From: Hyphomicrobiales bacterium
GTDB taxonomy: Bacteria; Pseudomonadota; Alphaproteobacteria; Rhizobiales; HXMU1428-3
Length of the DNA: 23,483 nucleotides
Direction of reading: 5' to 3'
Assembly: GCA_021775385.1 (NCBI GenBank)
Contig: JAJFHW010000149.1
Location: 1-23,483, forward strand
This document shows, one piece after another, positions 6,185-20,285 of this stretch (positions are counted from its first letter, which is position 1; each line of letters begins with the position of its first letter). The position numbers were made by a program, and so were the translations under genes. Below the pieces are notes generated by a model. The model did not search any database. It was not told the DNA's origin and worked only from the letters and a program-made list of their open reading frames with translations.

Positions 6185-7351
6185 TTAAGCCAATTCAGAC
6201 TTTGCAGTTGCAAAAGCCCAATCAAGCCATGGCGTCAAAAGCTCAAGGTCACTGGCTTCAACAGTCGCACCAGCCCAGATACGAAGACCCGCAGGTGCAT
6301 CGCGATAAGAGCCAATGTCTAAAGCTGCGCCAGCTTCATCAACAAGCTTAACAAGGCGCTTTGCAAACGCGGCTTGTGCATCACTATCTAGAGCTGCAAC
6401 AACAGGGTCGACAATTTTCAAACAAACAGATGTGTTTGAAGCAATGTCGTTCGATACCGCTAAGTTGGCAACCCAATCAGTTTTTGCAATCCAGTCATTG
6501 AGAACTTGAGCATTCTTGTCAGCACGAGCCTTCAGGGCAGTGAGCCCGCCAATGTTTTCAGCCCATTTCAAACCGTCGACATAATCTTCAACAGCAAGCA
6601 TAGACGGCGTGTTAATTGTCTCACCCTTAAAGATACCCGCAATTAATTTGCCGCCCTTAGTAAGACGGAAAATTTTAGGCATTGGCCAAGCTGGTGTGTA
6701 GCTCTCAAGACGAGCAACAGCTCTCGGCGATAAGACCAACATGCCATGCTGCCCTTCACCGCCCATAACTTTCTGCCAAGAGTAAGAAAGAACGTCAACT
6801 TTGTCCCAGGCAATATCCTGAGCAAAAACAGCTGACGTCGCGTCAACTAGTGTAAGACCTGCACGGTCGCTAGCAATCCAGTCACCGTTTGGCACCCGAA
6901 CACCAGATGTCGTTCCATTCCATGTGAAAACAACGTCTTTGTTGAAATCAACAGCAGATAAATCCGGAAGTTCACCATACTCAGCATCAAGAACTCGAAC
7001 ATCTTCAAGTTTCAATTGCTTCGTAATATCAGTGACCCAACCCTTACCAAAGCTTTCCCAAGCCAAAACATCAACGGGGCGTTCACCAAGTAGTGACCAC
7101 ATCGCAGCTTCAAAAGCACCTGTGTCAGAAGCTGGCATAATACCAACAACATAATCATCAGGAATACCTAAGATTTCTTTGGTTTTGTCGATTGCTAATT
7201 TCAAACGAGCTTTACCAACACCCGAACGGTGCGAACGTCCAAGAACAGCATCTTTTAAATTGTCTAGAGAATAACCAGGGCGTTTAGCACAAGGTCCAGA
7301 AGAAAAGTGCGCGTTTAAAGGCAGCGCTGCCGGTTTGTTTAGATCTGTCAT
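6185..7351 (-). CDS. serC: Phosphoserine aminotransferase
   Basis: PLP enzyme that transfers an amino group from glutamate to 3-phosphohydroxypyruvate, giving phosphoserine (second step of serine synthesis); in many bacteria it also acts in pyridoxal phosphate synthesis. The 388 residues match the alphaproteobacterial/Methanosarcina-like SerC group. N-terminal [23 protein letters not shown] (41-50), WESFGKGW and the PLP lysine region [15 protein letters not shown] (Lys194) are all visible. The start ATG follows GAGAGG at a seven-base spacing, and this ribosome binding site is embedded in a structured leader. It is first in a serC-serA pair, the usual arrangement in these bacteria. No defect is seen. 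Confidence 0.96.
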
Positions 7352-7400
7352 GATCTATCCTCTCAGATAGTTGCCTCTCGGTGGGGAGAGGTGGCCCACG
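7352..7400 (-). promoter_or_regulatory. serC leader RNA, candidate serC motif
   Basis: The last 49 bases before serC ATG hold CCTCTC (7391-7386), GAGAGG (7379-7374) and a second GAGAGG (7364-7359) that is the ribosome binding site. CCTCTC can pair with either GAGAGG: with the first it makes a hairpin with a six-base loop, with the second it hides the ribosome binding site. CTATC/GATAG (7370-7366 and 7359-7355) form a further small stem around the ribosome binding site. A 'serC' RNA motif upstream of serC-serA is described in alphaproteobacteria; position and gene order fit. The match is from memory, without a covariance search. Confidence 0.6.
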
Positions 7401-7404
7401 ACAG

Positions 7405-16484: not shown

Positions 16485-16988
16485 TTAATAATTAGCTGCA
16501 CCGTTTAATTTTGTCTCAACACGGCGGTTTTGTGACCAGCAACTAATATCATTACAAATTGCAACAGGACGTTCTTTACCATATGAAATGGTTCTGAGGC
16601 GGGTTGGGTTAACTCCATTTTGTATAAGATAATTTTTAATCACATCAGCCCGGCGACCACCAAGAGCAATGTTATACTCACGGGTTCCACGTTCATCAGC
16701 ATGACCTTCAAGCGTGACAGAGTAGTTAGAATACTGCTGCAACCACTTAACCTGGTTGCGCAAAATACCTAAAGCCTGTGCAGTCAGCTGCACACTATCG
16801 GTAGTGAAATGTACCGTTGTTCCAACATTCACAGCAAAGTCTTGCGGTGTTCCCGGTTTGGTTGGAACCCCAGTTAAGCTTTTATTCGCATTGCTACACC
16901 CAGTGACAAAAACTGCCAACATTAGAATACAAGTAAGCCTAAAAAAGCCCCGCATAAATAAATCCAGTCTTAAAAAATGAGATATCAT
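16485..16988 (-). CDS. pal: Peptidoglycan-associated lipoprotein Pal
   Basis: Outer-membrane lipoprotein that binds peptidoglycan and TolB. The lipobox VTGC places the lipid-bearing Cys at residue 31 of the chosen start. An OmpA-like C-terminal domain follows, with LEGHADERGTREYNIALGGRRA and NPTRLRTISYGKERP. An ATG two codons further upstream (16994) touches the GAGG ribosome binding site directly; the ATG at 16988 sits six bases from it, so I use that (167 residues). Another ATG (16955) would give a more typical short signal peptide but lacks a ribosome binding site. It is separated from tolB by an unusual 1.8-kb stretch. All Pal motifs are intact. Confidence 0.95.
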   Translation of the reverse strand: MISHFLRLDLFMRGFFRLTCILMLAVFVTGCSNANKSLTGVPTKPGTPQDFAVNVGTTVHFTTDSVQLTAQALGILRNQVKWLQQYSNYSVTLEGHADERGTREYNIALGGRRADVIKNYLIQNGVNPTRLRTISYGKERPVAICNDISCWSQNRRVETKLNGAANY

Positions 16989-17452
16989 TTTCATCCTCAG
17001 TTTTTCATCCTACCCTCAGATTTGCCCCCCTTAAAGTATGCTGGGGTTAAATACAACGGCGGTTACTCTTAGCTAAAATTGCTTCAAGCATTTTCAAATT
17101 ATTAAATTTCAATCAACACTCACCATCAATGCTTACAAAATCCAGCAAGAAGAAAACACTAAATTTTAGCATATCTCTAACTGAGAAAACAAATCAGATG
17201 GCATAACTATACATGTTTTTTTATGAACTGAAACTGATGAACAAGAACTTTTGGCTTAGAATGTTGATTTCAAGAAAACATCTTCAAGCACGCCAACAAA
17301 CACTCAAATAAACAAAGGCCTTCTTTGCAGTAAGCTCCAACCAGTCAAAAAACATACATCATAGCTAATGCAAAGAAAGCCCAAGATAAAAGCAAAATTA
17401 TGAATTATCTTATTTTAGAGTTGCAAATACGCATACAACAGCTAGATGCCCC
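16989..17452. other. Intergenic region upstream of pal
   Basis: No gene was found in these 464 AT-rich bases. On the minus strand TTGATG and TTTAAT, 17 bases apart (about 17128-17100), form a possible pal promoter, and TTGAAG-N16-TAACCG lies closer. AAGATAA/TTATCTT (about 17382-17411) is a weak hairpin after the membrane-protein gene. Since pal is so far from tolB here, its own promoter is expected in this stretch. Confidence 0.4.
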
Positions 17453-17857
17453 CTAAAAAACGAAACTTTTCGCCGGATAAAACAGAATTCCAGCAGCAAC
17501 CAAGCCAATCCAAAAGCCAATCTCCAAAGTCTCTGTAATCGGCTGAATGCCTTTGATGGCCCCGTATATATGAACAATAACCATCATCACAAAAACCAGA
17601 ATTAAAAAGTCGCAGATAAAGCTAACTCCGCTCCCATATAATATCGCACGCAAGACCATCACTTCAACAACAAGAGCAAAAGAACCCATACATCGCCCAA
17701 AATAAACGGCTAAGTCTGTATCTTCTGGAATTGACCATAAAAGCATCTTAGCCCATAACATCGGCGTAAAAAATATAGGAATTACGAAAGCAACCGTAGT
17801 CACAATCATTAAAATAAGTAGGTAAGTTTGTGTGTAATCAGAATAATACCCGAGCAT
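17453..17857 (-). CDS. Hypothetical four-helix membrane protein
   Basis: I do not recognise this 134-residue protein. It has four likely transmembrane helices (about 12-34, 53-73, 79-99 and 111-129) with short charged links (for example SIPEDTDLAVYFGR and IKGIQPITETLE). A strong AGGAGG ribosome binding site precedes ATG by six bases, so it is very likely a real gene. Small membrane proteins with the pattern of a Phe/Tyr-rich N-terminus, a conserved Pro-Glu-Asp loop and four helices are common as DUF families, but I cannot name one. It lies between the micro-lipoprotein genes and pal, inside the Tol-Pal run. A link to envelope function is only suggested by this position. Confidence 0.75.
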   Translation of the reverse strand: MLGYYSDYTQTYLLILMIVTTVAFVIPIFFTPMLWAKMLLWSIPEDTDLAVYFGRCMGSFALVVEVMVLRAILYGSGVSFICDFLILVFVMMVIVHIYGAIKGIQPITETLEIGFWIGLVAAGILFYPAKSFVF

Positions 17858-18054: not shown

Positions 18055-18096
18055 AAAAAAACCGCGCTGCATACCATTTAAAATATGCAACACGGT
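18055..18096 (-). terminator. Strong terminator after the micro-lipoprotein genes
   Basis: The minus-strand RNA forms a 13-bp stem, ACCGTGTTGCATA (18096-18084) with the arm at 18073-18061, including two G-U pairs and a ten-base loop. Seven T residues follow. The G-U pairs make it complete only on the minus strand. It lies 48 bases after the stop of the 46-codon gene and separates it from the membrane protein and pal. Confidence 0.85.
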
Positions 18097-18144
18097 CTTT
18101 TAACTGTTCTGAAAAATTAATTTCAGTCAAGTTGGTCGTTAAAA

Positions 18145-18285
18145 TTAACGAACAGCTTGAGTAACAGGAGCAACATCGCCACCAAGTTTCATTGGCTCAT
18201 GACGTACTTCACGACGACAAGCGCCAAGAGTAGCAACAGTACCAACGATAGTAGCAGCAATGATTAGACCTTTAAATTTATTCAT
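18145..18285 (-). CDS. Micro-lipoprotein A (46 residues)
   Basis: A tiny gene with ATG at 18285 and GGGGG seven to eight bases upstream. The protein has a Lys-containing N-region, a hydrophobic core (GLIIAATIVGTVATLGA) and a lipobox LGAC with Cys23, so a 24-residue mature lipoprotein is expected. The mature part begins CRREVRHEPMKLGG and ends VTQAVR. It is paralogous to the gene at 18393-18539: the Cys is at the same residue and the first 13 mature residues are identical. Residues after Cys are Arg-Arg, without Asp at +2, which fits outer-membrane sorting under the usual rule. A strong terminator follows. I do not know the family; entericidins are of similar size but do not share this sequence. 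Confidence 0.8.
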   Translation of the reverse strand: MNKFKGLIIAATIVGTVATLGACRREVRHEPMKLGGDVAPVTQAVR

Positions 18286-18392
18286 GGTAATTCCCCCTTC
18301 AGGTAATGTTTTGGATCAAGGTGATCCGGTTTGAAACTATATAATCCTAGTTAGTCAACATGACACTTTAATGTGCCAATTAATGAAATCAA

Positions 18393-18539
18393 TTAACGTA
18401 TCTGCTGTTCCACAACATTCAAAGCAGCATCAGACCCAAGCTTCATTGGTTCATGACGAACTTCACGGCGACATGCAGAAACACTAGCAACTGCACCGAT
18501 AAGAACGGCAGCAACTAATAGTCGTTTATACGATTGCAT
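18393..18539 (-). CDS. Micro-lipoprotein B (48 residues)
   Basis: ATG at 18539 is preceded by AAGGAG at an eight-base spacing, one of the best ribosome binding sites in the window. The protein has a Lys-Arg N-region, a hydrophobic stretch (LLVAAVLIGAVASVSA) and a lipobox VSAC with Cys23. The 26-residue mature part begins CRREVRHEPMKLGS and ends VVEQQIR. It matches the gene at 18145-18285 in the whole lipobox-to-Gly35 region; signal peptides and tails differ more. The pair lies directly after tolB on the same strand. The conserved basic/His-rich motif suggests a binding role (partner unknown); this is inference. Confidence 0.8.
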   Translation of the reverse strand: MQSYKRLLVAAVLIGAVASVSACRREVRHEPMKLGSDAALNVVEQQIR

Positions 18540-18777
18540 TATGTAAACTCCTTAAGAATTTTACGAGCAGTGCATACATCCGGATTACCGGCGTTACCCT
18601 ACAAGATCAAGAACAGATGCGATACAGTCACATGTTTTCACACACAATGATGCGAAAAAGACACGAATTACTGCATTTTAACCCCTTCAAGCATGTTAGA
18701 ACCATGATTAATACACAGCCCCATCTAACATCAGAGATTCAAATCGATTCTATCTATAAAGGCAAGAACTATAACAA
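18540..18777. other. Intergenic region between tolB and micro-lipoprotein B
   Basis: A 238-base gap with no further gene on either strand that has a ribosome binding site. CCGG-ATTA-CCGG (about 18580-18591) forms a small hairpin in the probable leader of micro-lipoprotein B. No clear tolB terminator was found, so read-through from tolB into the micro-genes is possible. Confidence 0.4.
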
Positions 18778-20178
18778 TTATTTATTAACACGAGGTGACC
18801 AAGCCGGGTCTGATCCCCAAGAAGGTGTTCTAACACGCCGCTCATTATACCCTGTTAAGTCGACAGAATAGATGCGAGCACCGCCTTTTGCACCAGGAGA
18901 CTCGCGAAAAAACATCAATACACGCCCATTTGGCGCCCACGTTGGGCCTTCATTATGATAACCCTCAGTCAAAATTCGCTCGCCCGAACCGTCTGGCTTC
19001 ATAACTCCAATAAGAAATCGCCCCGGTACTTGCTTAGTAAAGGCTATTAAATCACCCCTGGGCGACCAAACCGGCGTTGAATAACGCCCATCACCAAAAC
19101 TGATTCTCTTAGCGTTGGAGCCATTAGAATTCATAACAAAAAGTTGCTTAGAGCCACCTCTGTCAGATTCAAACACAATGTTTTTGCCATCAGGTGAGTA
19201 ACTCGGCGCTGTATCAATAGACGCGCTGTTCGTTAAGCGGACACTTTGCTTAGTGCCAATATCAAGGGTAAAAATGTTCGCATTTGCCCCTTGTTGCAAA
19301 CTCATAATGATTTTCCGACCATCTGGGGAAAACCTAGGAGCAAACGTCATATTAGGAAAATCGCCGACTACACGCTTCTGTCCCGTTTCCAAATTGAGCA
19401 AATAAACACGCGGAACCCCGCTTTCATACGACATAAAAGTAAGCTCATTAGCACGGGGTCCAAACCGCGGCGTTAAAACCAAATGCCGTCCCTGAGTTAA
19501 ATAACGCAGGTTATGCCCATCTTGATCCATAACGGCCAAACGCTTAATACGGCGTTTTTTACCGCCCGTTTCATCAATAAACGCAACCCGAGTGTCAAAA
19601 TACCCAGTCTCTCCAGTGAGACGCTTATAGATCGTATCCGCAATCACATGCCCAACACGGCGCCAGTTCTCATTTTCAATGAAAAATTGCTCACCTGAAA
19701 GCTGCTTACCAGAAAACACATCCCACAAACGATATTGCGCTTTAATACGCCTATCAGGAAGCCGCTCTACCTTACCAACCACAACAGCCTGCGCTTTAAT
19801 TACTCGCCAATCAGAAAACTTAGGAACACTTAAAACACTCGCATTTTTTTCAATAAAAGAAAGAGGGTCAAGTGGTTCAAACAATCCAGAGCCCGCCAAA
19901 TCAGCCTGAATAACCTGCACAACTTCTTGAGCAAAACGTTGGTCCTCAAAAGTCTTGCCTTCAAACGCTGAAATAGCAATTGGAATAGCCTGCACATTAC
20001 CTTCAGTAATATCAATCTCTACCTGAGCATATGAAGGAGAGGAAAAACCAAGCAGACAAACAAAACTAGCGATCATTGCCAAAAAATATTTTGGCAGTTT
20101 TGAAGCAAAAAGTGTCAAATTGTATTGAATTACAGAATTTTGAACTGGGTTTTCCCATAATCTTGTTCTGTGAGCCAT
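18778..20178 (-). CDS. tolB: Tol-Pal system protein TolB
   Basis: Periplasmic protein linking TolA and Pal. It has a signal peptide (hydrophobic [15 protein letters not shown], cleavage near SYA-Q), an N-terminal domain ([20 protein letters not shown], and a [14 protein letters not shown] segment) and a six-bladed beta-propeller with repeated SPDG-type blades ([61 protein letters not shown]). The frame reaches a GTG at 20190, but AAGG touches that codon directly. ATG at 20178 has AAGGTG nine bases upstream and is preferred (466 residues). It follows tolA by 107 bases. It is followed, unusually, by two micro-genes rather than by pal. Confidence 0.96.
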
Positions 20179-20285
20179 CTTGATTTTCACCTTTTTGATA
20201 ACATTAAATCTTCAAATTTTTAAATATCTGAGTTTGAATATGAGCAAAATCTATTAACTCAGAACTTGAGCTTTAACAAATAACT

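Follow-up and report, generated by a model that had tools for sequence, protein, structure and literature searches.

Why should an alphaproteobacterial Tol-Pal cluster carry two minute lipoprotein genes between tolB and pal, and what might their products do? The two genes lie on the minus strand of the window analyzed here, a 23,483-nucleotide stretch from a Hyphomicrobiales bacterium, and are referred to by labels coined for this work: lipA (18145..18285; 46 codons, mature protein of 24 residues) and its tandem paralogue lipB (18393..18539; 48 codons, mature protein of 26 residues). A first-pass annotation, made from the letters of the window, had described a pair of lipoprotein genes with ribosome binding sites, signal peptides, and a lipobox Cys at residue 23, and each element was found as described. 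Shine-Dalgarno-like stretches precede both genes (GAAGGGGGAA for lipA and AAGGAG for lipB), and both encode a signal peptide with a lipobox (LGAC and VSAC, respectively) placing the Cys at residue 23. The first 13 residues of the two mature proteins, hereafter the head, are the same (CRREVRHEPMKLG); this identity, also pointed out at first pass, is real, and the same head recurs in six of seven same-genus relatives, with no hit in the seventh, a draft genome (G005). In the genome of the window itself (79% complete), no copies other than these two were found.

Gene order in the window was read as ybgC-tolQ-tolR-tolA-tolB-lipB-lipA-(134-aa ORF)-pal-cpoB-tilS-ftsH. The names tolB, pal, tolR, cpoB, tilS, and ftsH derive from family matches, tolA has a TonB_C match below the cut-off, and two further genes are presumed from position to be tolQ and ybgC. 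The upstream neighbor of the pair is tolB (18778..20190, minus strand; TIGR02800, 451 bits), so the lip genes do directly follow tolB as had been proposed; the accompanying idea that they displace pal did not hold, since pal sits downstream on the same strand (16485..16994; TIGR02802, 134 bits), 1.15 kb from the nearer lip gene as measured between BLAST ends. Between lipA and pal lies a hydrophobic 134-aa ORF (17453..17857, minus strand) that has no Pfam or NCBIfam match and no counterpart in the 20 related stretches searched. Because the lip-to-pal distance is shorter in same-genus relatives, a recent insertion is suggested for this ORF. Elsewhere in the window, a serC leader RNA (7350-7401, minus strand; RF00517, 64.8 bits) was identified directly upstream of a 388-aa ORF (6185-7351).

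A profile built from 24 members matched 67 of 397 genomes of the order at E<=1.8e-6, a count that includes the window genome and the source genomes of the profile. These matches span 15 families, and the motif is thus kept beyond close strains. Another 19 genomes with weaker matches (E 1.5e-5 to 0.01) were left out of the count; by position these resemble signal-peptide matches, mostly within longer frames. A search of named genomes with one narrow peptide pattern returned 16 loci, all from metagenome-assembled genomes (MAGs) named Hyphomicrobium, Methyloligella, Rhodomicrobium, Hyphomicrobiaceae, or less precisely. Among 385 genomes sampled from the class, a strong match was found only in the window's own genome, and ten others gave weak matches (9.6e-4 to 2.5e-5) that fall mainly on the signal peptide. 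A sample of 200 genomes from the phylum returned four others, all weak, one belonging to the window's order and one encountered before. Two weak hits outside the order were read (L185 and L189), both without the head. From these sequence searches we infer that the lip genes are members of an uncatalogued micro-lipoprotein family, apparently old, found in one branch of Hyphomicrobiales and likely made up of lipid-anchored mini-proteins. A search of titles and abstract openings returned no publication on a lip-like gene between tolB and pal.

Genomic context was read in 60 of the 67 strong-match genomes. Both tolB and pal flank lip in 52 of these, one flank is present in seven, owing to contig ends or a lost gene, and neither in one (G016); wherever tolB was seen, lip is on its strand. 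The linkage to tolB and pal, which the first-pass annotation had put up for checking, is thus constant. In relatives with no lip match (n = 36), tolB and pal are adjacent in 29, separated by a median of 205 bp versus ~850 bp where lip is present. Two of these 29 (G028 and G035) have tolB-pal gaps of more than 400 bp and contain no such lipoprotein among frames of at least 30 aa, and the remaining seven of the 36 gave no pal match within the ~3 kb fetched. In a TolB tree of 61 genomes, a quick reconstruction without an outgroup in which G113 and G012 sit on long branches, 33 of the 36 lip-less genomes share the same side of a branch with SH-aLRT support of 99, and three changes account for the presence or absence of lip. 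This distribution is compatible with a single old gain followed by a few losses (G037 and two small genomes, G010 and G060).

Copy number varies within the family. One taxonomic family (f2), which includes the MAG named Hyphomicrobium (L053 and L071 have identical lip sequences), has one to three tandem copies. One genome (G171) is best read as a recent duplication because the nucleotide sequences of its two copies hardly differ. In six f2 genomes (L049, L102, L103, L109, L110, and L111), an additional member is found no more than about 3 kb from a TolA-like gene, whose product scored above the TonB_C cut-off in two of three cases scanned. One genus (g32) has extra copies with the same head beside unrelated genes, for example those for a sulfatase and an extensin-like protein.

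Which part of so small a protein is conserved? The Cys is invariant in an alignment of 35 members, some of which were chosen by a Cys-containing pattern, and Cys, Pro, and Lys are kept in nearly all members, with Gly mostly next after Lys. The basic, His-containing motif that had been put forward as the binding part is not the best-kept element, as His is missing in several members; head types in Hyphomicrobium include CRREVPHTPMKLG and the His-less CRREEPAPLKLG. The mature part measures ~17-30 aa across the family, and the tail appears dispensable because, in family f32, forms of 36-39 aa stop at EPLKLG. AlphaFold2 predicted, at low confidence, a helix over residues 2-26 and no secondary structure beyond (mean pLDDT 67; block pLDDT 47-60 past residue 26). 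Two members fall outside the motif pattern, those of G113 (head CRKEVAEPSLKLG) and G232 (CRKEVAHDSFKLG), and were left out of the head, dN/dS, paralogue, hairpin, and promoter/terminator sets. Rows with an incomplete motif are G018b and G159b (contig ends), G025 (HETLKFG), G052 copy 1 (ending KLS), and G233 (ending EPLK).

Comparison of lipA with lipB bears out the earlier surmise that the first mature half is constrained. Over the 13 head codons there are five synonymous and no non-synonymous differences, whereas the 22 signal-peptide codons show two synonymous and 13 non-synonymous differences (head versus signal peptide, Fisher p = 0.0006). Between genomes of the genus, dN/dS is 0-0.22 for the 46-aa gene lipA (six genomes) and 0.22-0.54 for the 48-aa gene lipB (five genomes), reaching up to 0.53 in other groups; these are NG86 estimates on 40-48 codons and carry the large error of short genes, and the set used for dN/dS and head differences contains one mis-parsed second head (G155). 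The values are not near 1, and the lip protein is evidently under purifying selection at the sequence level.

The likeness of heads within a genome extends well past the window. Signal peptides in f2 are largely copy-specific and heads are alike within each genome: EEPA in all three copies of G095, EEPV in all three of G128, EEAA in both copies of G316 and of G355, and VPHT in both copies of G201 and of G220. Heads are identical in 13 of 23 two-copy genomes; nine genomes differ by one or two residues, largely copy-specific Arg/Lys, and G256 differs by four. Per head codon, non-synonymous differences amount to 0.059 between paralogues versus 0.135 between same-copy genes of other genomes, and synonymous differences to 0.38 versus 0.337; signal peptides differ by 0.33 between paralogues versus 0.24 between same-copy genes. 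This comparison covers 24 two-copy f2 and named genomes, including nFW332 (a repeat of G390), and uses heads of equal length only (314 of 552 same-copy pairs). Own head pairs have on average 0.72 differences versus 2.47 +/- 0.21 for shuffled pairs, and none of 20000 shuffles reached so low a value (18 genomes; phylogeny ignored).

Two processes could make paralogous heads alike, and the codons bear on both. In G201, 11 of 13 head codons differ between the copies with no residue change. Sites at which the two copies agree in residue but two genomes do not yielded 156 site-by-pair cases; in 132 of them, at least one of the genomes encodes the shared residue with different codons in its copies. 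This count ignores phylogeny and is drawn from f2 and named genomes alone with nFW332 dropped (251 cases when families are mixed). At one position, the codons are GCG/GCT/GCT in G095 and GTG/GTT/GTT in G128, such that the residue has changed in all copies and the third bases are copy-specific. Across f2, third bases were kept per copy in nine patterns versus four crossed patterns; this signal is weak, and the general case therefore rests on the codon differences. Copies located elsewhere in the genome in f32 also carry the head of the tol locus, with codons again partly different. Recent gene conversion is unlikely because paralogue codons differ, and an old conversion followed by synonymous drift is possible; a shared partner towards which the heads are selected is the simpler account and, judged from these codon patterns, the likely one.

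The lip genes look like a separate transcription unit, judging from candidate signals on either side. A promoter-like element, CTTGATC-N13-CCGGTA, lies upstream of lipB at 18586..18611 (minus strand), some 70 nt ahead of the first copy. It was not among the output of a sigma-70 scan of the window. The pattern CTTGA-N13..17-GGTA occurs in 30 of 66 distinct copy-1 upstream regions versus 5 of 1320 random 90-mers, which were taken from the same loci and are mostly coding, the pattern having been framed after inspection of the upstream sequences. A terminator-like hairpin follows lipA at 18056..18101 (minus strand), before the 134-aa ORF and pal. The window terminator alone is not significant, because one was found versus 0.7 +/- 0.9 in shuffles of the region; across the family, a terminator-like structure follows the last copy at 40 of 66 loci versus 7.9% of mononucleotide shuffles. 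A further hairpin, GGATCA-CCT-TGATCC (18313..18327, minus strand), lies 27 nt before the lipA start, and two of its pairs co-change by eye among same-genus orthologues (A-U to G-C and C-G to U-A). A general 5' hairpin, CGGC..GCCG, was considered for the other copies and rejected, as it showed mostly no excess over mononucleotide shuffles and some sequences break the pairing. Measured against a ribosomal-gene stretch of a relative (G003), the codon adaptation index (CAI) of lipA (0.835) is higher than that of all 17 window ORFs of at least 120 aa compared, and that of lipB (0.611) is unremarkable. Strong codon bias is also found in both G003 copies, and the index is moderate in G302 (0.481 and 0.582) and G193 (0.716), for which the reference sets are small. 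On codon usage, lip is probably well expressed in the window genus.

Several known small lipoproteins invite comparison. Lpp is encoded by a tiny gene that has a promoter and a terminator to itself and strong codon bias; the lip genes appear to share this layout, and lipA shares the codon bias. The mature Lpp protein, however, is ~58 aa long versus ~17-30 aa for lip, which lacks both a conserved C-terminal Lys and a predicted helix beyond residue 26. Pal is an outer-membrane lipoprotein encoded in the same cluster, but lip has no OmpA-like domain and pal is separately present downstream. Entericidin genes (ecnAB) are laid out in tandem. In class and size (~50 aa), lip resembles the entericidin family, including Agrobacterium Atu8019 (PMC10117765, PMC7296081). 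Across 35 members, neither the 6 Pfam nor the 17 NCBIfam families listed at E <= 0.1 include an entericidin model; the family matches that do occur are weak and scattered (PG1828_fam_lipo at 0.005 and LsoB_effector at 0.01 in NCBIfam, with 5 of 35 members each; best Pfam match, 0.015).

LptM (YifL, NF047847) is a very small outer-membrane lipoprotein, as lip is predicted to be. It has a conserved N-terminus beside the lipid anchor that contacts LptD and a C-terminal region that differs outside Enterobacteriaceae (PMC10567701). The head and locus of LptM are both different from those of lip. Identity of the two was rejected, as only 1 of 35 members matches NF047847 (E = 0.037) and the 27.7-bit cut-off was not reached; a separate LptM match occurs elsewhere in 7 of 7 genomes tested, above the cut-off in six, and four of the seven matches were inspected individually. 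A phage o-spanin origin was likewise rejected, with no match to lipA in 50,697 phage records; lipB matches O_Spanin_T7 at E = 0.13, and PHROGs returned weak matches to undescribed families (best for lipA, PHROG 35017, E 0.0021). A plasmid search with one family member gave no match.

Does lip work with its neighbors? A possible, though on balance improbable, reading is that lip is a Tol-Pal accessory: the head would attach to Pal or TolB, or else to peptidoglycan next to Pal, and lip would modulate outer-membrane constriction at division or at the growing pole. The constant position between tolB and pal on tolB's strand speaks for it, as do the further f2 members near TolA-like genes, which may be plain shared synteny. 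In Sinorhizobium meliloti, Tol-Pal has a part in unipolar growth and in division (PMC7327166). Genus g32 weighs against this reading. A strong lip match is present in 11 of its genomes; TolB_N was found in two of ten tested, and in the eleventh (G373) the locus includes tolB. All eight genomes without TolB_N keep the lip match, three of them being drafts of 90% completeness or less; the set also includes two single-contig genomes. At three such loci (L179, L043, and L215), tolQ, pal, and lip remain, along with ybgC in the two where it was sought, and no tolR, tolA, or tolB match was obtained; lip stands ~500-560 nt before pal. ExbD/TolR-type proteins are encoded elsewhere in four of five TolB_N-less g32 genomes tested, and Pal at the g32 locus scores 104-109 bits in four genomes, under the 125-bit cut-off. 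In one genome, pal matches near the lip match occur solely as three adjacent pieces (G080:C2:180243-180549), as would be expected if pal is broken or the contig misassembled. Another genome, G113, keeps tolB and lip; its sole Pal_lipo match (45.5 bits) lies in a 345-aa frame elsewhere and is similar to an additional hit in G144 that is not Pal (41.5 bits, 365 aa). TolB is thus not required, given the TolB_N-less g32 genomes, and Pal may not be, given the G113 score; the first-pass proposal that the proteins could act with TolB is not borne out as a requirement, and a Pal-linked role of the micro-lipoproteins is conceivable. The accessory reading also sits poorly with the promoter-like element and terminator of lip itself, and with the same-head g32 copies beside unrelated genes.

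The explanation that we tentatively prefer, at somewhat less than even likelihood, is that lip is a lipid-anchored peptide whose head docks one common outer-membrane partner, with the tail as a spacer and the Tol-Pal address as an ancestral one. The protein would be exported, receive its lipid at Cys23 through Lgt/LspA/Lnt, and reach the outer membrane by the Lol route, there to serve as a short, flexible tether. In the head, Cys is followed by mostly basic residues, then by P-[M/L]-K and usually Gly; the head would dock as a linear peptide, as modelled on the contact of the LptM N-terminus with LptD (PMC10567701). The partner, common to all copies, would most likely be a membrane-proximal protein machine of the outer membrane; the tail would be a dispensable spacer, and neither TolB nor perhaps Pal a required partner. 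A surface lipoprotein of the entericidin or Atu8019 type, acting on the membrane itself in envelope stress or vesicle docking and needing no specific protein partner, is quite unlikely. Similar size, lipobox, and tandem layout (as in ecnAB) favor it, but no entericidin model was returned at E <= 0.1 for the 35 members, and the likeness of heads within genomes suggests a specific partner. Atu8019 itself is exposed at the surface of Agrobacterium and takes part in vesicle docking (PMC7296081). Least credible, and very improbable, is a translated leader or attenuator for pal, in which the ORF would be regulatory and the protein incidental. The lipA hairpin of the window genus, the strong Shine-Dalgarno stretches, and the terminator-like structure between lip and pal would suit such a device; purifying selection on the protein, a conserved signal peptide and lipobox, like heads written in different codons, and copies away from pal all count against it.

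What does the family add? Lip is an uncatalogued but widely conserved small protein at one of the best-studied envelope loci, and size cut-offs tend to hide such proteins. Paralogue heads that are alike despite different codons provide a handle for a partner search by co-variation, and TolB-less genomes that keep lip offer a natural test of its function. It is possible, if doubtful, that lip is a lineage-specific outer-membrane peptide cofactor, in which case the like heads would be a matched key co-evolving with its machine, and the family would have arisen in the Tol-Pal locus, become TolB-independent, and, in some genera, spread to further loci.
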